Part shown: in pieces, positions 19,355 through 46,963 of the stretch | How the letters are laid out: every line of letters starts with the position of its first letter | Numbering within the stretch: the first letter of the stretch is position 1 | NCBI RefSeq assembly: GCF_964204645.1 | Contig: NC_134025.1 | Coordinates: 3,849,001 to 3,913,000, forward strand | Reading direction: 5' to 3' | Origin: Tubulanus polymorphus | Taxonomy: Eukaryota > Nemertea > Palaeonemertea > Tubulaniformes > Tubulanidae | Length of the DNA stretch: 64,000 nt | Position numbers and translations under genes: made by a program | Notes under the pieces: generated by a model | Seen by the model: only the letters and a program-made list of their open reading frames with translations | What the model was told of the DNA's origin: nothing | Databases searched by the model: none

Positions 19355-21036
19355 TCAGTATTTAGCATAGTCAAAATATCGAAGTACGTCACGACAGTGC
19401 GTGTTGATAGCTTTGACATCACTTAGATATGTTTTACTTTGCCAGGCCAGTGCGACGCGAGATGAGTTGTCTTTTCTTGTGCCCATGTTGCTGTATATAA
19501 TTTTTCCAGGATCGTTTTGCGTCATTTCCTTAATCGCCCTCATTACAGAAGCCGGTATATACTGAGGAAATCCCATGAAATTATACACATTTTGCACGGC
19601 CTTAAACGGATCGAAAGCCAGCGATTCGTATTTCAAGAAAAAGAATCGGTTTGGATATTTTTTTGCCATTTTTCGAAAAATAGCGACATCTTTACGCATA
19701 TAATCGCAGAACTGCTCAGCACCCACTGAACTGTCCTTTCGATTCGAAAATGATGCTCGAGAGCTGAGAGTACCCCGTGGATCGCGCACGTAGTAAATAA
19801 ACAACCAATCCGGATGCTTTTCTGTCAAATATTCAATAGTTTCCATCGAAGCGCGAATTATTTTTGCCGCACGAATGTTCGAAATTCTGCATCTCTCTAA
19901 TAATCCAGCCTCCTTTATACAAGTTTGTACTCCATCCGTTTCATATATTGGTTTCATGCACCGGTACCAATCTAATAACGCTTTCTTTTGTCTTTCATCG
20001 AGGGATATTTTTCCAGATATATTTCCGCGATTTTCTCTCATTTCGCTCAGTATTTGTGAACAGAAGTTATCATTAAGCGAACAGCGTAATGGCTGTAATA
20101 GGGTGTAGCACCTAGCCACATAACCTTGGCTACCAACTAGTTTTAATATACATTCATTGTAACGATTCACTTTAGTCCCCCAGTTCACGAAATGATGAGT
20201 AAGGACCTCTTTCATTACATTAGCTTCATCTAGTTCACAGTTCAATAGTCCGTTGAGAAGTTTTTCAATTGCCGCGGGATTTTCTTTAGTCAATCTAGAA
20301 AAATATCGAAAAAACTTGTATCGGAATGAAAATAGAATATTAATCAAAAATACCGTTTGAATGTAAAAAGACTCTACAAACTAACCGAAGAACAAGTGAT
20401 TGGCTTTGACCCATAGGAGACAAATGAACGCCGATCATGTTTAGGTATAGGTTAGCAATCGGCTCAAACCAAAGGAAGGCACGTTCGTTCTTCTCAAAGC
20501 TTTTTCCGATGAAAGTCGTTCCTCCGCGCATATATCCGTACAGAACTACTTTCGATGGCATCTGCCTTTGAGGATAGGTTTCATCTTCAAGAACAGAGGA
20601 ATCGTATTGTCTCTTTAGTTCATATTGTGGTGGTACCGTTGATGATATCGTGTTTTCCTGAAAAAAAAGGCGAAGTTAGTGAAGGAGCTTAACCAGTGAT
20701 GCAAAAATAATTACTGACCACATTTCAAATTCAATTATATACCTTCCGCAAGGGCGTAGATTTTTTTTGAGTTGGACATATTCGAGGATTGATATCCGAT
20801 TTTATTTCGTTTTCGTTGATCGATCTGGCTCCATAATACAGAAGACGTTCTCGGAATATCCAAATAACTAAAATACATGTCATTAATCGATTTACGACAT
20901 ATATACTTATAACAAAAACTCGTCCAGAAACTGGCTCTGACTTATTGGAAGTTTGTGAATACGGATAAATAATCCTACCTAAAATAAGGGTGATTATTAC
21001 TGAAATGTAGTATTTGCAAATCACAAATTTTCGCAT
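19355..21036 (-). CDS. Golgi carbohydrate sulfotransferase (CHST-like)
   Basis: Type II membrane enzyme that would transfer sulfate from PAPS to a glycan in the Golgi. Four exons on the minus strand, 21036-20979, 20867-20743, 20657-20386 and 20294-19355, keep phase and give 464 residues. Residues about 5-22 form one hydrophobic anchor after a short basic N-terminus (MRKF). A stem region of about 75 residues follows. The 5'-phosphosulfate loop is at about 100-113 (YGYMRGGTTFIGKSF) and the 3'-phosphate loop at about 321-334 (VRDPRGTLSSRASF). Both motifs match the Gal/GlcNAc-6-O-sulfotransferase group as I recall it, though GGTT replaces the common SGSS or TGSS. The donor in exon 3 was chosen as CG|GTTAGT because the next exon needs phase 2. 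No close vertebrate orthologue or acceptor sugar can be named. Confidence 0.88.
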
Positions 21037-21843: not shown

Positions 21844-24106
<2,263 letters not shown>

Positions 24107-29439: not shown

Positions 29440-30057
29440 TTTAAAGATTATTTTCCCTGAAATTTTACAATATAAGAATACAAAGATTGAATGCAATTCA
29501 ATTCAAATAAATTCTTTAAATTGAGAAATATTAGTTTTATTAACTTTTGCCGAAAACCTTTCAACCTAAAAATAGCCAACCAATATCTACAGATATCCAG
29601 TTATTTTTTACTTAGAATTAAATCATCAAAATAAATTTATTAGACAAAACGACACGAGAAATGAGACCAGAATTTTACCAGATCGACATTCAATTTTTCA
29701 GAGGGTCATCCGCCATTTTGATGATCACGTGATTGCTTCAGTCTGAGGGCACAGAGGGAACATCGTCTGCATTTTGTTCTGATATTCAGTGTTTGTTGAC
29801 AGTTATCACTTCAATACCGCAGCTAAATTGTCTCAAAAGGTACGCAGCGATTTGGGAGAATTACCTATGTAGACGAAGTTTTTGTAATATTCCCTTTTTC
29901 TGGTAGATTTTTGCTATTTTCTGCATTTTTTGATTTTCTTGATTATAGGCGGCAGCACCTACTGGTAAGGTTAGAATATTCCGATGAGGTTCGGGCTGAT
30001 ATGAATCGTAAACTTTGACTAATGAATTTTCTATTCCAATTAGGTATTGAATTGAAT
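29440..30057. promoter_or_regulatory. Bidirectional promoter and 5' leaders, CLASRP / acidic gene
   Basis: The two start codons diverge 618 bases apart. In the middle, CCGCCATTTTG at 29710-29720 is the reverse form of the YY1 motif (CAAAATGGCGG), and TCACGTGA at 29725-29732 contains a CACGTG E-box. Splice signals fit a short non-coding plus-strand exon ending at a GTACGC donor (about 29839) and an acceptor TTAG at 30041-30044 just before the start at 30058. YY1 sites near start points of housekeeping genes are well known; use here is inference. Confidence 0.55.
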
Positions 30058-30756
30058 ATGGCTACCTTAACGGCATTGAACACAGAGCAAAACCCACAAA
30101 TTTCTGAATCAGACTCAAAGCAGATTTTAACCAGCAGAGATAGGACACTGTGCGAAGACGATAAATTTGTTGATTATTTCGACTTGTATGATGCAGACTC
30201 GAATGTAGTTCCTGATATTGAACGAGATTTACTATGCAATGAACAGTTATCCGATTTCGATGATAATAGTTGTGATATTGTTGAAAATCTTGAACCGACT
30301 CCGAAGAAATATAAGACATCGGCCGAGCTCGAACCCTGTTTGAATAACGAGATACCGAGTTTTCTTCCTGATGAAAGAGAACATGAGATCACTGGACTTA
30401 ATAACGATGAAGTTTTGAGTGATGAAAATAGTTTGTCCACCTTGAACAATGAAACTGTGAACACTGCGAAATCTCCTACCAGTTCAATTGAAGATAATGT
30501 GCAACTCGGTGCTGAAGAGACATTCGATGATTTGAATATTCCATCCGAATTGACTGCAGAAGATTCAGCCGAATCTGTAATTACGATTCCATCGACTGAA
30601 CTGTATTCGCCGGAAGAAAGAGAACATTTCGTGCCAGATTTAAACAACAGCTATTACTCCAGTGATGATTATGATAGCGATAGCCAGGATAACAGTAGAA
30701 CACTGAACTCTTGCCAAACTGATCAAGTTGTGCCTAACTTTTTTGTCGAAGAATGA
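30058..30756 (+). CDS. Uncharacterised acidic, Ser/Asn-rich protein
   Basis: I do not recognise this gene. One open frame of 232 residues runs from the ATG at 30058, just after a probable acceptor (TTAG at 30041-30044). It is strongly acidic and likely disordered: Asp, Glu, Ser and Asn dominate, and I see no signal peptide, membrane span, zinc motif or catalytic motif. Visible features are a short basic patch PTPKKYKT near residue 85, which could be a nuclear signal or phosphosite, two related segments (PDEREHEITGLNNDE and SPEEREHFVPDLNNSYYSS) suggesting an internal repeat, and a DYDSDSQDNS cluster near the end. A transcription-related or adaptor role would fit the composition but is a guess. 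It shares a promoter with CLASRP. An AATAAA follows at 31022. Reading-frame length, promoter, leader acceptor and poly(A) signal all argue that it is real. Confidence 0.72.
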   Translation: MATLTALNTEQNPQISESDSKQILTSRDRTLCEDDKFVDYFDLYDADSNVVPDIERDLLCNEQLSDFDDNSCDIVENLEPTPKKYKTSAELEPCLNNEIPSFLPDEREHEITGLNNDEVLSDENSLSTLNNETVNTAKSPTSSIEDNVQLGAEETFDDLNIPSELTAEDSAESVITIPSTELYSPEEREHFVPDLNNSYYSSDDYDSDSQDNSRTLNSCQTDQVVPNFFVEE

Positions 30757-31380: not shown

Positions 31381-34202
31381 TTACTGTAAGCTTACAGATT
31401 TATTATTGTGAGGAACAGCGTTTGGTCGTATCAATGGGGGTGGTTGATGCAACATCGTTCTGTGATGATGGTGGTTAGGATTCTGAAATCTGATAAAATC
31501 CATAAATCAGAAACAAACGAAAAACTTAATTTCAAATTATTTTGTAAATTACTTTCTCATTAGGGCGACTGACACTAACCTAGCCTGGTGTTGCTGGGGA
31601 TGCAACGGCGGCGGCCTCATTCCTCCTGCCATTATCGATGGGCTTTGTTTAAGTAAAGGTGGTGGTGCAGCGCTGACAGTTACAGTACTGGATGCTGTGC
31701 TGGGTATTGCTGCTGAAGAGGTAGATATTGCTGCAGTAGATGCTACACTAGAGTTGGTTACCGTTGATGGCGCAGGTTCAGCAGACTTCATCTCAACATC
31801 CTGAATCATATAGCCAGCCACAGATTAATAAGACCTGAACACTATTCGATAAATAGATTACTAACATACACCTACCTTAGATTTTTCTTCCTCTTTCTCC
31901 TGAGTTTCTTCAGTCAGACCATTTTCAGCTTCATACTCGGCGAGCACCTCATCCAGGTTGTATCGTCGTCTATAGTTGATGAAGAAACTCCTCACGTGAG
32001 ATTCTGATTTATTTCCGATGACTTCAGATATCGCGAGGAAATCATTGCCATATTTTCTGACACCCTGTACGGCGATAAGTAACTCTTCATTCGTCCAACG
32101 AGGATTTATCTTCTGTGTTTCCTGTAAATCATGAACAAAAAATTTTAATTCCTTTGAATCTTCAATGATTACAAAATCATTATCACAAATAGTACTTACA
32201 ATCCCATCACGTATTTCATTAACTCCTTTAGTACAAATCTCTGCCTGCTGACTAACAATCTGTTTATTTTGACGTACCTAAAAACAAACCAAATCTAAAT
32301 CAGGCACAATACTTACATAATTCATGAATATCTCAGAGGAATCAATTGTCATGAACTTACTTGGCGTTTCAACGAGATAATCTCCGCTTCGAGTTGTTTC
32401 AAGATTGCATCTCCTTGTCCACTTGGACCAGTTGCCATCGCAATGAGATCTTCTTTGTTCAGATATATTCCCCTCGGTGGTTTACGTTTGTGTTTTATAG
32501 GATTATGACGTCCAGAGTGGGATAGTTCTTGTTTCTTCGGTCCGAGATTCGAGCGCATAAGTCCTGTACGTCTGCGAATAAAGAATTGTTTCAAATCAAG
32601 AGTCATTCAATGGTTGGATATTACCGGTATATTGTACTGAGTGAAAACTGTCAAAAACCTCTCACCTCCAATACTGATAGCATGAGTTACACAGTGATCC
32701 TTTAGGTGTTGCATGCAACTGAGATGCACTAACGCCACAATTTGAACAACGAGGCTTACCATCACTTTTCTGCAAACAAGTCATTTTAATCATTGAATTC
32801 ATGCTTCATGAATTATCAATCAATTATATTCATTTAGACATACCCCATCTTTAGGATGCTCAATGTCACTATCACTTGCTCCACTGCCAGCCTCAGAACC
32901 ACCATCACTGAAATACAGTATTTTCTCGCTATCAACCAAACATATCACAATTACTGATATTCAGTTAAGTATAACTGATTGAAGCCTACCTTTCGTCTTC
33001 CCTTTGATTGGCTAGTTTCTTAGCTTGTCGATCCATGAGGCTCGTACGAGATCGAGTTTTCTTCCACGAATAGTAATATTTCACCAAACTTGAAATCGAC
33101 TTATCAGGAAGCTGAAAAACAAAAGATTCAAATTCAGCAAAATCTTAAGACATTGATAAATCTCTATAATATCCATAGCCATAACAGCGATTTATAGTTT
33201 ACCATTTGACGTATTCGGTGAAAACTTTTCCCGTGGAAACTGAAAGCTTGTTCAAACAACACTTTATCTTCGGTGGTCCAGTCATCGGGATATGGTGTAA
33301 AATTCGGAAGATCGGCCAGAGCTTTTTCTACATGATGCTTGTGCCAAAATAACATTCCCAGTGCCTGGAAGAGATTTTATGAATGTAAATAAAGACTTCT
33401 AATTAACAAGGTTACTTCTGGTTGGATAATTCCGCATACCTGTTCGGTATTATAACCATGCTTTTCTTTGGCTACCATAGTGTACTCATCGACTGTAAAA
33501 CAAATGCATGAGTAAAAACAATTTGTATTCAATTCCATAGGCCTATAAAAAATTACCTTTACCAAAATAAATAAATAAAACAACTAACTTTTAAATTCTG
33601 TAAGTTCAGAACTTGGAGCCCAGACCAATATAGCATCCACCTTACTGTCATATTTTCCATCTGAAAAATTGAAATGATTCATTGATTTTAGTATATTACG
33701 ATAGATGGCATCTGTGTAGTTGAGTATTTTCTACCGCTCTGCTAAGTAATCTGAAATCATTTTATTATGAAGCAGGCCATTAAATATGAAAAGATACAAT
33801 GATATCGATAATGGTGACATTTGATTCGATGATATTTTATTATAGGCAAACTCACTAACTTCATATCTAATTAACGATTTAACCCGAAATTAATTTAATT
33901 AGACACAGAATTAATTGACAAACTTACCACCAGCAGGGTTACCAATAACGTTGGGTATTTTAGCCTGATACATATCACCAATTCTCATTCCTCCTTCTAA
34001 AAAGAGTTGAATAAAACGAAGCTTTGATATAGATGAATTCCATGGTATCCGAGAAAGCCAGAAATAAAAGATACGAACCAGAATCCGAGTCATCAGAGCT
34101 ACTGTCATCGGACAGGTGCCCGTTGTTATTATTGTTGGGACTTGCGCCTCTGGATCGACGACCGTTTCGACCTTCTTCCATATTTCGTTCAGCTGCAACC
34201 AT
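31381..34202 (-). CDS. RCOR: REST corepressor (CoREST / RCOR), with a GATA-like zinc finger
   Basis: Scaffold of the LSD1-HDAC1/2 chromatin-silencing complex. Thirteen minus-strand exons: 34202-34079, 33996-33928, 33660-33589, 33492-33440, 33364-33203, 33111-32990, 32907-32844, 32769-32666, 32571-32361, 32277-32200, 32121-31876, 31800-31580, 31489-31381, giving 544 residues in phase. Order: an acidic Ser/Asn N-terminus, ELM2 domain ([15 protein letters not shown], then [19 protein letters not shown]), SANT1 ([19 protein letters not shown], then [19 protein letters not shown]), an acidic linker, a GATA-like finger CSNC...CNSC, the [10 protein letters not shown] linker, a coiled coil ([11 protein letters not shown]), SANT2 ([18 protein letters not shown] to [15 protein letters not shown]), and a Ser/Thr/Ala/Pro-rich tail ending His/Pro-rich. 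The zinc finger is the odd part. The start is the first in-frame ATG; an upstream exon is possible. Confidence 0.95.
32666..32769 (-). other. RCOR: GATA-like zinc-finger exon inside RCOR
   Basis: The 104-base exon encodes [20 protein letters not shown] followed by [11 protein letters not shown], so Cys-X2-Cys, 15 residues, Cys-X2-Cys. This resembles a GATA-type finger, shortened in the loop, and the following YWRR-GL resembles the segment after the finger of MTA proteins. The exon is in phase with both neighbours (phase 0 in, phase 2 out) and has consensus splice sites, so it is part of the gene rather than a stray frame. Confidence 0.85.
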
Positions 34203-35288: not shown

Positions 35289-38200
35289 ATGCACGACGCA
35301 TTTGAAGCTGTTCCTATATTGGAAAAATTGCCTCTAGCAATTGAATCAATTGCTTGTTTCGGTCAGTCGAACTGAAAGTGGATAAAACCACTCGTCTTAA
35401 CTCCTCTCTGACTCTGACTCTCTAATCAATTCAATCAAATTTACTATATTTTTGTGTATTTAGTGGCCATGTCATCAATAAGTAGTTTCTGGATTCAACT
35501 CCTGTTCAGGTCAGACCCACACCCTTAGTTAAACTTCTAGCTAGACCTCCTTATAGCAGAATCCAGCGATTTCCTTAAAAAATGAGAATATTCAACCTCC
35601 ATTTCCTGACAGTTTTATCATTTGACATTTACAGAGGATACATTACTTGTCGGTACAAGAGATGGGTTTTTGTTAGTTTACAAAGTTCGACCAATCCCAG
35701 GAGCTGCTGGTAATTTCAAATAGTTTTATTCCTGTGTAATGTCTGGCTGAATTAAGTGTGAGGAGTCTTTATCAATTGCTTCCATTTCAGTACTAGTAGC
35801 TAATTTTGATGTATCCTTAGAAAAGACAAATAAAGCATTTGCCAGGAAACCAGTTGTACAGGTAACCATTAATGGAAAATTATCTTTCTGTGTTGTAACT
35901 ATAATATAAAATACCCCACTGAGAAAGAAAAAATAGAGTCTGAAATTGTTTCCTTGAGCTTTTTGAGTTCATTTGATGTTTCATACTGTTTCTAACAATT
36001 CATATAGTTTGCTTCTTCAGTATTCCTGAAGATAGATATTAAAGGATCAAAACATTGAATAAACTAGGAACAATTTCAGACCCTAGTTTGGGATTTGATA
36101 TTTAAGTTATACGGATAGGCCTATATTTAAAGTTAAAATGTAATTAGTCATAGTCCAAATTTATGCTGAATAGATTTTTGTATTATTTTCAGCTGGCTGC
36201 CATTCCAGAATTTCAACTACTTATTAGTTTATCTGATAACCAGATAAATGTCCATGATTTAACTGTCTATGCACAAATAACAACCATTCCACGGACGAAG
36301 GGAGCCAATCTATTCGCCATTGATCTTCAGGTATAACACATAAAAAGCATTTTGCAAAATTCATCTATGAAGTCAGTTTCGTGAGTAGATTTTCAATATA
36401 TTTTCAAGGAAACTAAAACAATGAATGGGGAGCCTCAGTATACATTACGCCTGTGCGTCTCTGTGAGAAGGAGATTACAGTTATACTACTGGAAAAATAG
36501 AGATTTTCACGAGCTTCAGGTAAGCGTATGAATATCAGAAATCAAATTTTGAAAATGTACTTGAAACTAGAAAATTTATATTTCTGTATTGAATGGCTCA
36601 TGTATTACAGCCTGAACTATGTGTGTCTGATTTAATCAAATCAATGGCCTGGTGTAAAGATTCAGTGTGTGTAGGATTCACTCGTGATTACTTTCTCATT
36701 AATGTAAGTGCATTGATAAATGAATTTCTTCACCTATACAATGTGACGGATATTAAATTTGAAGTGATTTGTTATAGATTGCATCTGGGAATCTGAAAGA
36801 ACTGTTCACTACTGGAAAACAACGAGAATCTTCAATACTCCGATTAAAGAATGACACGGTCACCTTCGCTAAGGACAACAAATTGCGGTCAGGAAGTGCT
36901 ATGGATATAAATGGAATTAAATTTAAAACAAAAAATACCAATTCAAAAGAAGTTAATAAGAACCATTATGATGATAGACTTGCTCTTATCAGAGATGATA
37001 TGACAATTTTCATCAATCAAGATGGCGATCCATTGAAACATGCAATCAAGTGGACTAATATTCCATCAGTTATGGGTAAGTCATCCAGTTCTCTTCCATA
37101 TCTAAACATTCCTTAAAGCGAAAGAAATCAGAAATATTCTATTAGCAGATTTCAGCTTTCTCATTTAAAAGTTTCTTGTTCTTTTTAGCCCATCATCCAC
37201 CGTACTTACTCGCTGTTCTTCCGAAATATGTTGAAGTTTGGACAATTCAACCAAAATCTCTCATACAAAGTATTGAGCTCAAAAATCCTAAACTGATTTG
37301 CGAATCACAGTAAGTAATGATTATATCAGGTGTCTTATGCTTTTGGCTGTCCATGTCGATTTGTCATTAAACACATTGTTTTCTTGTCTACCTTTCAAAG
37401 CGGAACTGTGTATGTATCTGCCCAGAACTATGTGTGGAGGTTAGCATATAGACCTATAGCTGATCAAATCAAACAATTACTACAGAGTAAAGCTTTTGAA
37501 TTAGCTCTGAAATTAGCCGTAAGTATTACCATAGATTTTAGATGTAGTTTTGAGGATATCCTCGAAATTTCAACGGCAGAAAATGAATTTGAATGTTGCT
37601 GATTTGAATTTTCAGACAATGATAAAGGATCCAGATTCCCAGCAACCTGGGCGTATTCACCATATACAGACTCTTTATGCGTGTGATCTTTTTGGTCAGA
37701 AAAAATTTGAAGAATCCATGAACATATTTCTAAGCCTAGGCGTAGGTAAATAATCTACCGAGGATTTGTCCCAAATTATTTCATCACCGATAACCTGATT
37801 TACATCATTACAAGACTTTCATGATATATTTATAATAGATCCATCAAATGTAATTGGTATGTTCCCTCAGCTGCTACCACCAGATTTCAGAAGTCAACTT
37901 AATTATCCCGAAAAACCTCCGGAATTAGAAGGAGTTGAACTTGAGAAGGGACTACTTGCGTTGATTGACTACCTCACTCAGGTTTGTTCTATTGATTATA
38001 CCATAAATTTCAGGAAAATAGATTCATTTTCATGGCATTAGTCAAATCAGTGTTTTTTATTTGAATAGTATTTCCTTGCATTCTTTTCTTTCTTACAGAA
38101 AAGAAATCAACTGATCAAAGACAAAGACAACAAAGAGTTGCGATATACAGCAATTGTTGAAGGCAACACGACCATCAGATCAAAGAAACAGCTGCATACG

Positions 38201-41200
38201 ATCATCGATACAACATTGTTAAAATGCTACCTACAGGTAAATTCTTATATCCTTTTATATGTCATTTGAATTCCGATGAAATCTTACCTTATTTATTGGT
38301 ACTAACTTTTGATGTTACAGACAAATGATGCATTAGTCGCATCACTGCTTCGTTTGCCTGATAACCATTGTCATGAGGATGAAAGTGAACGCGTATTAAA
38401 GAAATATCATAAGTATGATGAGCTTGTTATTCTCTATGAAAGAAAAGGGTTACATCGAAAAGGTAAATATACTAGTTCTAATTCTTCCTTTTCGAGGTTA
38501 ACTGATACTCTTGTATTTGATAATCATTATTTTATATTACCAGCATTAGAATTATTGTTGAAACATTCATGTAAGCCTACGTCTTCACTAGAAGGACATG
38601 AAAGGACCATTCAGTATTTGCAGCAACTAGGTTAATATCTCGGCTCAGTTTGCTACTTCGTTTATTGTTTGATAATCTGCCTTTCTTCACAAATTCCCAG
38701 AATTTCACTTACTTAACGATTTATTTTCCAGGACCTGAATATATAGAACTTATTTTTGAATATGCTAGATGGGTTATTCAGTCTAAACCTAATGATGGCA
38801 TAAAGGTATGCTCATACATGTGAAAATTTATGGTTTACAATAATAATTCAGTAATATATGACAGGAGTTTATATCGGTATTTTTTAGATATTTACAGAAG
38901 ACCTCCATGAGGTTGAAACCTTACCAAGGGATCGTGTTTTAGCTTATATCGAAGAAAATGCAATAGAATTAGCCATTCCTTACTTAGTAAGATATTCATT
39001 TGAATAGATTTAGAAGTGGATTCCAATGTTTTGTGTATAAAATGAAATGTAAGTGATACTTAAATGTTATATTTCAGGAGCATGTAATTACAGTGTGGAA
39101 TGATGAAACTGTTGAGTTTCATAACCGTCTCATAACTTTGTACAGAACTAAATGTGACCTTCCAATGGTGCAATATCTCGCTACATTAGAGAGTGGTCAG
39201 TAGATTTATGATTTATCGTGTAGCTAAGCATAATTAGATAGGAATACAAAGATCTAAAGACACATATCTCTATTTACAGGTGCTAAACCTGCTCCAGCTG
39301 GTTCAGAACCTGGCGAACTTGGTAGTTATAGAACAAGGCTTTTGTTATTCCTGGAAACATCAGAGTGTTATACACCTGAACGACTTCTTACTGGATTCCC
39401 GAGTGAAGGTCAGTGCATTTCTCTTCATTTAGCTAAATCAAAAATTGTCCAACCTAAAGTATGTTTTTCTGCTTTTCTTTCAGCATTTTATGAAGAGCGA
39501 GCCCTGCTTTTGGGACGACTGGGACGGCATGATCATGCTCTAGCAATCTATGTATTGATTCTAAAAGATATCAAAATGGCAGAAGAGTAAGTTTATCATC
39601 TGTAGCTTGACTGAATTCAATGAATTATTGATAATATTTCAAATATGATACTTATGGTTCAAATTTAAGGTACTGTAAAAAAGCATACAGCAAGACAAAA
39701 GAAGGAAACAAAGATGTGAGATATAATGATGCGATAACATAACGCACTTAACAATCAATTTATTTGTATTTTGAATCTAAAGAGGAGATGATTCCAATTG
39801 TTTACAAACAATTCTACATTTCAGGTGTATTTATCGTTACTGAGAATGTATCTTGCACCACCAGACACAACTAGCCTCGGGTTAAAACGATTATCTACTC
39901 CAAACTCTAATGCTGAGATCAACGTCAACGCTGCCCTAAGTCTCCTTCAGGAACATGCTGCTCACATGAATACTGCTAAGGTTAGGGCGTGTTAGTTTTA
40001 CCATTAGGGAGGTGCTGCCATCTCTTGTTTCTTTTTGATACTTCAGTGTTACCATTTGAACAAATATTTCTTGTGTGCATTGAATATATGGAACCAATAT
40101 TTTCTGCCTTTGTGTATGAATGAAATTCTAATGTTTTCTATTGCATATATTATAGGCTTTAGAACTTTTGCCTGCATCAACCAAAGTAAGAGATATTCTG
40201 AACTTTTTGGAGAATGTTTTGGAAGACCGGGCTGCAACCAAGCGTGACTTAAAACTATTAAGATGTCTCCTTTACGCCGAACATTTGCAGGTACTAACAA
40301 ATGACCAATAGTAGAAAGTTAAATTGCTATTCAATGTTTCTATAACAAAATGAAAATCTATGTTTATATTGGAGGGAGAAGTTTTAACGATAATATTCTA
40401 TCTTTATAGTCATTTGCTTTGAGATTTAGATAACTGGATCGTTCTTGCATTGCGTTGTTTTATCATGACTCGTTGATTGTTAGTTTTGATAATTGGCGTG
40501 AACTCGTGGTTCTACAATAACATCTATTACCCAGTATTCTATGTCAAACACTTATCTTATGTAAATATGGAACAATTTAATTGATCATTAATGTTACAGC
40601 CGTGTTTTTAGATACATGTATGCCATTAATTCTTTGGAGCCTTATAAATGGATTTGTTTTAACTTTTAGCGAGAAGGGGTTACATCTGATAACCCTAGTG
40701 ATGAATAACCCAAGGCAACATCTTTTACCTGAGGGTTATGTTCCCTAGGGGTTAACATCAAACCCAGTCTATAAAACCTGCCCCTGATGAATAAATACCC
40801 TCTTTTTCCTGTTTCCTCCATGACACTAAATGCCACGGAATGACATTTCTACATTGATACTCTTGACATTCAAATAAGCCATGTGTCCTTATACTTGATT
40901 TAGCTCCTCAAGGTATTGGCTGAGCTTTTTTTAAAGGCTACTTCTCCCACCCAGTGAAATCTGGTTAATATGTTATGCCTAGTATTGTAGTGATCACTTC
41001 AAGTTATCGACCCAAAAATGTTGAAAGCCTTATGTTTGATGAGAACTTCCATAATCCGTCTTCTAAAAAAAGATCAATACTAAGACACAATTGAGTCGTG
41101 AATGTTAAACATTCACCGTCTGTTGCTCAGAAATCATATATCAATCAATGAATCTAGTCCGATGCCGTTTAGCGATCAATAGTTTATGTATATACTTGTT

Positions 41201-46185: not shown

Positions 46186-46963
46186 ATTGCCCTGTTGAAC
46201 CTTTGCCGTGCCAAATCTTTACCAGAGAAAAATTGTATTTTTTCTTACTAATTTTCGTTCTTTATTCACTTTTTTATTAGAATTTCACGAACTGAGAAAT
46301 TCTTAATTTCTCTAACGTATCGATCTTGGACAAGACTTCTACAAATTTTCTTTAAATATCTAATTAAATAAATATATATGCATAATATTTGACCCACTAC
46401 TATACAACGAATGGGCTATTTCGGCCCAGTTTTACATATTTTGGGAATTGGCACGTGCGGCCTATAAATATTTTTATTTCATTATTCATGAAAATAGTTC
46501 ACGATGTTGAAAAAACGATGACATCACATCTAGTCTAGTGTATCGATACACTAGGGATAGACTATCCATATTCACTCCAGAAATAAGAATGTAAAAGATT
46601 CAGTTTTATTAACAACGACTTAGAAAAATATATTTCGAAAGCATTCTAATAGCAAATCGGTGTGATAGGACATACAATTACATGGGTTTCATTTGACGTC
46701 ACGAACTCTTTCGGCGCATTCATATTTTTCGGCTTCGTGCGACGGCTCGCGTCGGGTTCCTTCAATCTTCAGCACTGAAAAATACGGAAAACGGATTAAA
46801 AACCTGGGTGTTCATCAAAACTTAAAGGCCATTCAAGACAACTGTAAGAGTTGTTTGAAGAGCAGATCTTTCTGCTCTAGAGGTATGTCGATTTGTAAGA
46901 TTTGCACATTATTTAGCAGGAGAATTTTCAATCCGAAATCGGGTGTTCCGGAAAGCAGCCGCC

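Follow-up and report, generated by a model that had tools for sequence, protein, structure and literature searches.

A GATA-like zinc finger between the SANT domains of a nemertean CoREST

The CoREST corepressor brings two enzymes together, a histone deacetylase and a histone demethylase, and its structure has mostly been studied with human RCOR1. HDAC1/2 is bound by the ELM2-SANT1 unit of CoREST and LSD1 by the linker together with SANT2, which also contacts the DNA of the nucleosome (review: PMC7288346). In a stretch of 64,000 nucleotides from the nemertean Tubulanus polymorphus (hereafter the window), a gene of this family has a separate exon encoding four cysteines between the two SANT domains. 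The locus raises the question of whether this exon is a genuine part of a CoREST protein, whether it encodes a GATA finger, and how it came to be there. Taking the evidence as a whole, we lean towards the view that this is the only CoREST gene of the genome, that its exon 8 adds a constitutive finger contacting DNA, the nucleosome or a partner protein, and that the vertebrate line lost this finger.

Thirteen exons joined on the minus strand (34202..31381; Table 1) form a complete CoREST/RCOR gene of 544 amino acids. Each of the twelve introns is of the GT-AG type and no stop interrupts the frame, so that mis-joined frames were rejected. The order of domains is ELM2, SANT1, finger, LSD1-binding helix and SANT2, and the known domains score above their Pfam cut-offs: ELM2 with 39.2 bits, followed by SANT1; Myb/SANT with two stretches (68.4 bits in sum), SANT2 in exon 11 giving 42.8 bits and aligning with that of RCOR1 and RCOR3; and REST_helical with 85.1 bits over residues 286-350. 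The finger is thus flanked in a single frame by ELM2, Myb and REST_helical, which bears out the preliminary description of a CoREST with a finger between SANT1 and SANT2. The best match among solved structures is human RCOR3 (429.6 bits, residues 16-535), with RCOR1 second.

Table 1. Exons of the CoREST gene and the cysteine core of its finger (positions in the window; a slash in a motif marks an intron)
Feature	Position	Strand	Content
Exon 1	34079..34202	-	Putative start codon (picked by inspection) and acidic/Ser-rich N terminus
Exon 2	33928..33996	-	ELM2 begins
Exon 3	33589..33660	-	ELM2
Exon 4	33440..33492	-	ELM2, C-terminal part
Exon 5	33203..33364	-	ELM2/SANT1 junction and first part of SANT1
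Exon 6	32990..33111	-	SANT1, second part; preceded by phase-0 intron (RQM/LPDK)
Exon 7	32844..32907	-	Acidic linker, ends HPKDG; phase 2 to phase 0
Exon 8	32666..32769	-	Zinc finger, protein residues 223-257
CX2C-X15-CX2C core (CSNC...CNSC)	32680..32748	-	From motif scan
Exon 9	32361..32571	-	Basic tail following the finger (...KHKRKPPRG); LSD1-binding helix (REST_helical), first part
Exon 10	32200..32277	-	Remainder of LSD1-binding helix
Exon 11	31876..32121	-	SANT2
Exon 12	31580..31800	-	Ser/Thr/Ala/Pro-rich C-terminal region; aligns with RCOR3 tail
Exon 13	31381..31489	-	PPPLIRP tail and stop; resembles RCOR3 tail

With the protein as query, the CoREST exons were found once in the whole assembly. 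Beyond the window the same query matched just two places, a SANT2-like stretch with 34% identity (E 3.6e-4) and a sequence at chance level (E 1.9). The gene appears to be single-copy, and is the only CoREST (RCOR) gene detected. Scans of bacterial and archaeal contigs, made as a contamination check, and of viral contigs revealed no CoREST relatives; their one finger-like match was a phage zinc-ribbon (L042).

The window also contains several other candidate coding regions. Sulfotransferase-family frames lie at 19355-20675 on the minus strand (Pfam Sulfotransfer_3, 44.2 bits on 19355-20380), and exons of a cyclin-dependent-kinase-like kinase, CDK7-like by eye, at 22247-23784 on the plus strand (Pfam Pkinase, 39.1 bits for one exon). 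Many exons at 36154-41000 (+) resemble by eye a tethering protein of the VPS39/TGFBRAP1 type; two of them, scanned singly, had no Pfam match. About 600 bases past the 3' end of CoREST, on the opposite strand, there is an open frame of 245 amino acids (30019-30756, +) that is acidic, Ser/Asn-rich and without a Pfam match.

Exon 8 is 104 nt long, with acceptor cttgtttgcag and donor gtgaga, and encodes 35 residues that include CSNC-X15-CNSCYQYW-R/R, where the slash marks the exon join: the codon of its last arginine takes its third base from exon 9, which continues RTGLMR. The span and the CX2C-X15-CX2C motif given for the exon in the preliminary description were exact, and the YWRR said to follow is YQYW, an arginine across the exon join and a further arginine. 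The GC content of exon 8 is 0.42, that of the introns on either side 0.26 and 0.35, and the other CoREST exons are likewise GC-richer. Stop-free strings of the form CX2C-X13..20-CX2C are rare, with only two in the six frames of the window (the other at 46843-46905, +) against an average of 0.15 in mononucleotide shuffles of it; given this rarity, a chance origin of the finger motif was rejected. Judging from the sequence, the frame of the finger exon is almost certainly coding.

Pfam GATA was the best family for the finger in every run. Against the curated cut-off of PF00320 (26.8 bits), the score varies with the context supplied: 27.1 bits for a 50-amino-acid piece, 25.0 for a 105-amino-acid piece and 21.9 for the whole protein. 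The MTA and RERE fingers of the same genome, each joined across its intron by hand, reach 30.6 and 46.8 bits, respectively, and the phage ribbon L042, which served as a negative control in profile scoring, 12.4 bits. In a sequence search of the PDB, the best match of the finger was GATA1 (E 0.0013); an NCBIfam search of the finger gave no match. A small local profile was built from the genome's own GATA, MTA and RERE fingers. On it the CoREST finger scored 17.8, a value attained by only one of 5000 shuffles in which the cysteines were kept fixed, and the phage ribbon scored 18.6. A profile of GATA fingers alone gave 6.4, a score that 335 of 5000 shuffles reached or exceeded, and a profile of MTA and RERE fingers gave 11.7 bits, which was equalled or bettered by 29 of 5000 shuffles and by the phage ribbon (15.1).

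In detail, the finger departs from GATA factors in two respects. Its spacing is X15, against X17 in the canonical GATA fingers encoded elsewhere in this genome, and LHAT stands in the aligned position of LWRR. LWRR contacts bases in GATA-1 structures. Because it is replaced here, sequence-specific binding to GATA sites was rejected as unlikely. The finger is probably treble-clef-like and GATA in appearance, and proper membership of the GATA family stays a candidate assignment. What had been called GATA-like at the outset is so in its best Pfam family, at the cut-off; descent from GATA fingers does not follow.

An AlphaFold2 model of exon 8 whose alignment included GATA fingers places a hairpin between the two CX2C pairs and starts a helix at the second one; its confidence is low, with a mean pLDDT of 64.9 and values of 74-79 across the finger. 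Since GATA fingers were fed into this model, the likeness of its fold to GATA is not independent evidence. Without an alignment, AlphaFold2 placed a helix after the second CX2C and no hairpin between the pairs (pLDDT 67). Among the top-ranking structures for the low-confidence model were GATA1 and GATA3, with an rmsd of 1.6-2.3 over 31-34 residues and Z about 3. LIM, RING and ribosomal zinc proteins ranked equally with them at the same Z, and a Foldseek search with the finger model found nothing below E 0.2.

Other finger-bearing sequences were seen in the course of these scans. The phage ribbon belongs to a protein with four small zinc ribbons in a row, encoded on a phage-like IMG/VR contig (IMGVR_UViG_3300009430_000109; L042:4787-5278), and the first of these ribbons (CENCG...), a look-alike treble-clef sequence, nearly equals the CoREST finger string. 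Near-identical copies of one repeat are spread over many contigs (L012, L015-L021, and more on C8, C12 and C13). The open frame of this family, about 1918 codons long, includes a GATA-like CX2C-X17-CX2C finger that scores 18.7 bits against Pfam GATA; no Pfam family besides GATA was found in the 1028 codons scanned, and the family is probably a transposable element. The genome also has three two-finger GATA genes (C8:840043-840929, C8:870130-873704 and C3:27230409-27231716), the two on C8 about 30 kb apart, a set that suggests a bilaterian animal with local GATA duplication.

From exon 5 to the end of SANT2, the identity to CoREST is 59% for RCOR3 and 55% for RCOR1. Both human proteins align on either side of the finger and do not have its cysteines, so that the absence of a finger supposed for vertebrate RCOR1-3 holds for human RCOR1 and RCOR3. 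Around the site, RCOR3 has HPMDG before, IGLGRR...RPPKGMYL after, and a shorter cysteine-less stretch between. Loss in vertebrates would account for this alignment, and so would gain elsewhere; the finger may also be confined to one lineage. One study on the evolution of RCOR describes the pre-linker of jawed vertebrates as disordered and highly variable, and makes no mention of a zinc finger (PMC10721905). We suspect that the vertebrate line lost the finger and has the disordered pre-linker instead.

Where did the finger come from? One answer, which we hold to be quite possible if somewhat short of an even chance, is descent from the GATA finger of MTA and RERE, CoREST having kept an ancestral ELM2-SANT-GATA layout that was lost in vertebrate RCORs. 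The order of domains is the same as in MTA and RERE, the best Pfam family is GATA, and the W-x-Y-W-K-K of MTA resembles the Y-x-Y-W-R-R of CoREST. The MTA and CoREST genes of this genome also have a phase-0 intron at the same position in SANT (RQDF/LPWK and RQM/LPDK), which indicates that their ELM2-SANT units are related and fits common descent of that unit. The introns of the finger itself, however, speak against such a history. In the MTA and RERE genes of this genome a phase-1 intron falls a few residues after the first CX2C, the two being two codons apart in our own alignment, whereas the introns of CoREST lie before and after the finger and none lies inside it. Moreover, X15 is shorter than the spacing of MTA, RERE or GATA, the score on the MTA and RERE profile is one that shuffles and the phage ribbon can match or exceed, and PMC9400249 derives CoREST from a one-SANT ELM2-SANT protein, with no finger mentioned. 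Given the different introns, the ancestral layout stays one reading among several. Another, which we put forward only tentatively, is that the finger arose separately, by exon gain or treble-clef convergence, in the pre-linker of some invertebrate CoRESTs and is only a GATA look-alike. That the phage ribbon equals the CoREST finger on the local profile shows that GATA resemblance arises readily; unrelated reading frames of this genome, such as the 1918-codon repeats, bear GATA-like fingers too, and both the different finger introns and the tie with LIM, RING and ribosomal zinc proteins point the same way. A separate origin sits less well with the Pfam GATA score, far above that of the phage ribbon, and with the place of the finger directly after SANT, as in MTA and RERE. 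The stronger version of the first history, in which the finger is ancestral in animal CoREST, goes back to an ELM2-SANT-finger ancestor common to CoREST, MTA and RERE, and was replaced in vertebrates by the disordered pre-linker, seems to us possible, though less likely than not.

As to function, exon 8 would place a small four-cysteine, one-zinc treble-clef finger that looks GATA-like after the ELM2-SANT1 unit, which binds HDAC, and before the helix-SANT2 unit, which binds LSD1; the four cysteines suggest that the finger binds zinc. An LSD1-like SWIRM exon (LSD1 by eye) lies elsewhere in the genome (C1:25212537). The finger lies at the hinge between the two units, together with the basic tail that follows it, a stretch with a net charge of +10 over 43 residues. 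For the GATA-like finger of MTA1, DNA binding that may lack sequence specificity has been proposed (PMC4244562); that finger may also extend to the DNA of the nucleosome, although density for it was not seen (PMC7736783). By analogy with MTA1, it is likely that the CoREST finger makes sequence-nonspecific contact with the nucleosome or DNA, or docks a partner, and that it would do so with its basic tail and near the LSD1 arm. It could also be that the finger makes no contact with DNA and is a docking or stiffening element that sets the distance between the HDAC and LSD1 lobes, an option we regard as open to serious consideration but not as the probable one. The base-contacting residues of GATA are missing, the MTA1 region that includes its finger pulls down RBBP4/7 and GATAD2 is involved in histone-tail binding (both PMC4244562), all of which would suit docking, but the strongly basic tail better suits contact with nucleic acid or an acidic patch.

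The main CoREST protein most likely contains the finger constitutively, because the frame makes exon 8 hard to omit alone. If exon 8 is left out the frame breaks, with a stop at codon 244, and it also breaks if exon 7 is left out. The exon had been described as in-phase; the frame does run through it, but it goes from phase 0 to phase 2 and is no singly droppable cassette. Omission of exons 8 and 9 together keeps the frame at the cost of part of the LSD1-binding helix. Omission of exons 7 and 8 together keeps it as well and yields a CoREST of 488 amino acids without the finger, so that one finger-less isoform is possible. That these two exons form a true alternative pair, giving a finger isoform and a finger-less, vertebrate-like one, is unlikely in our view. 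Exon 6 does join exon 9 in frame, and splice isoforms of Drosophila CoREST with an altered linker are cited as reported in a passage of PMC9400249, but in-frame joining has a one-in-three chance anyway and the splice sites of exons 7 and 8 are ordinary by eye.

The papers searched contain no mention of a zinc finger inside CoREST. A survey of CoREST in 54 animals and 22 choanoflagellates takes ELM2 and two SANTs as the defining features of the family, and neither 'zinc' nor 'GATA' occurs in its main text (PMC9400249); the papers on C. elegans rcor-1 and spr-1 have nothing on a CoREST zinc finger. The silence of both evolutionary surveys (PMC10721905, PMC9400249) is not proof that the sequences they cover have no finger, as their authors may not have looked for one. 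Both CoREST and the GATA-like finger after SANT in MTA and RERE are known; none of the papers searched describes a CoREST with such a finger. Many invertebrate CoRESTs that have the finger may be present in protein databases already, and if it is common there, it is an undiscussed feature of the databases and not a new kind of protein. If our reading is true, one mode of contact of the complex with chromatin or a partner is missing from the vertebrate model of CoREST, and the finger has a bearing on the relations among the HDAC scaffolds CoREST, MTA and RERE.

The nemertean protein can be compared with several known systems. With the GATA factor finger (PF00320) it shares the CxNCG...LCNxC core and a treble-clef-like model of low confidence, and differs in its X15 spacing, in LHAT for LWRR and in a score that lies at the cut-off. 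MTA1-3, the NuRD scaffolds, likewise have ELM2-SANT followed by a GATA-like finger, with the SANT intron in common; however, MTA has a BAH domain before, RBBP-binding motifs after and one SANT only, and its finger has a longer loop and is split by an intron. RERE/Atrophin has SANT and then a GATA-like finger (both halves in L043), also intron-split and, unlike that of CoREST, well above the Pfam GATA cut-off. RERE is not known to have a second SANT. The long isoform of Drosophila CoREST, as presented in part of PMC9400249 citing earlier work, resembles the nemertean protein in having an insertion in the inter-SANT linker, but this insertion is large and reported to abolish Lsd1 binding. RCOR1-3 share with it ELM2, SANT1, the REST_helical LSD1-binding segment, SANT2 and the PPPLIRP tail; RCOR1 and RCOR3 differ in having a pre-linker without these cysteines, reported to be disordered, where the nemertean CoREST has a four-cysteine finger.
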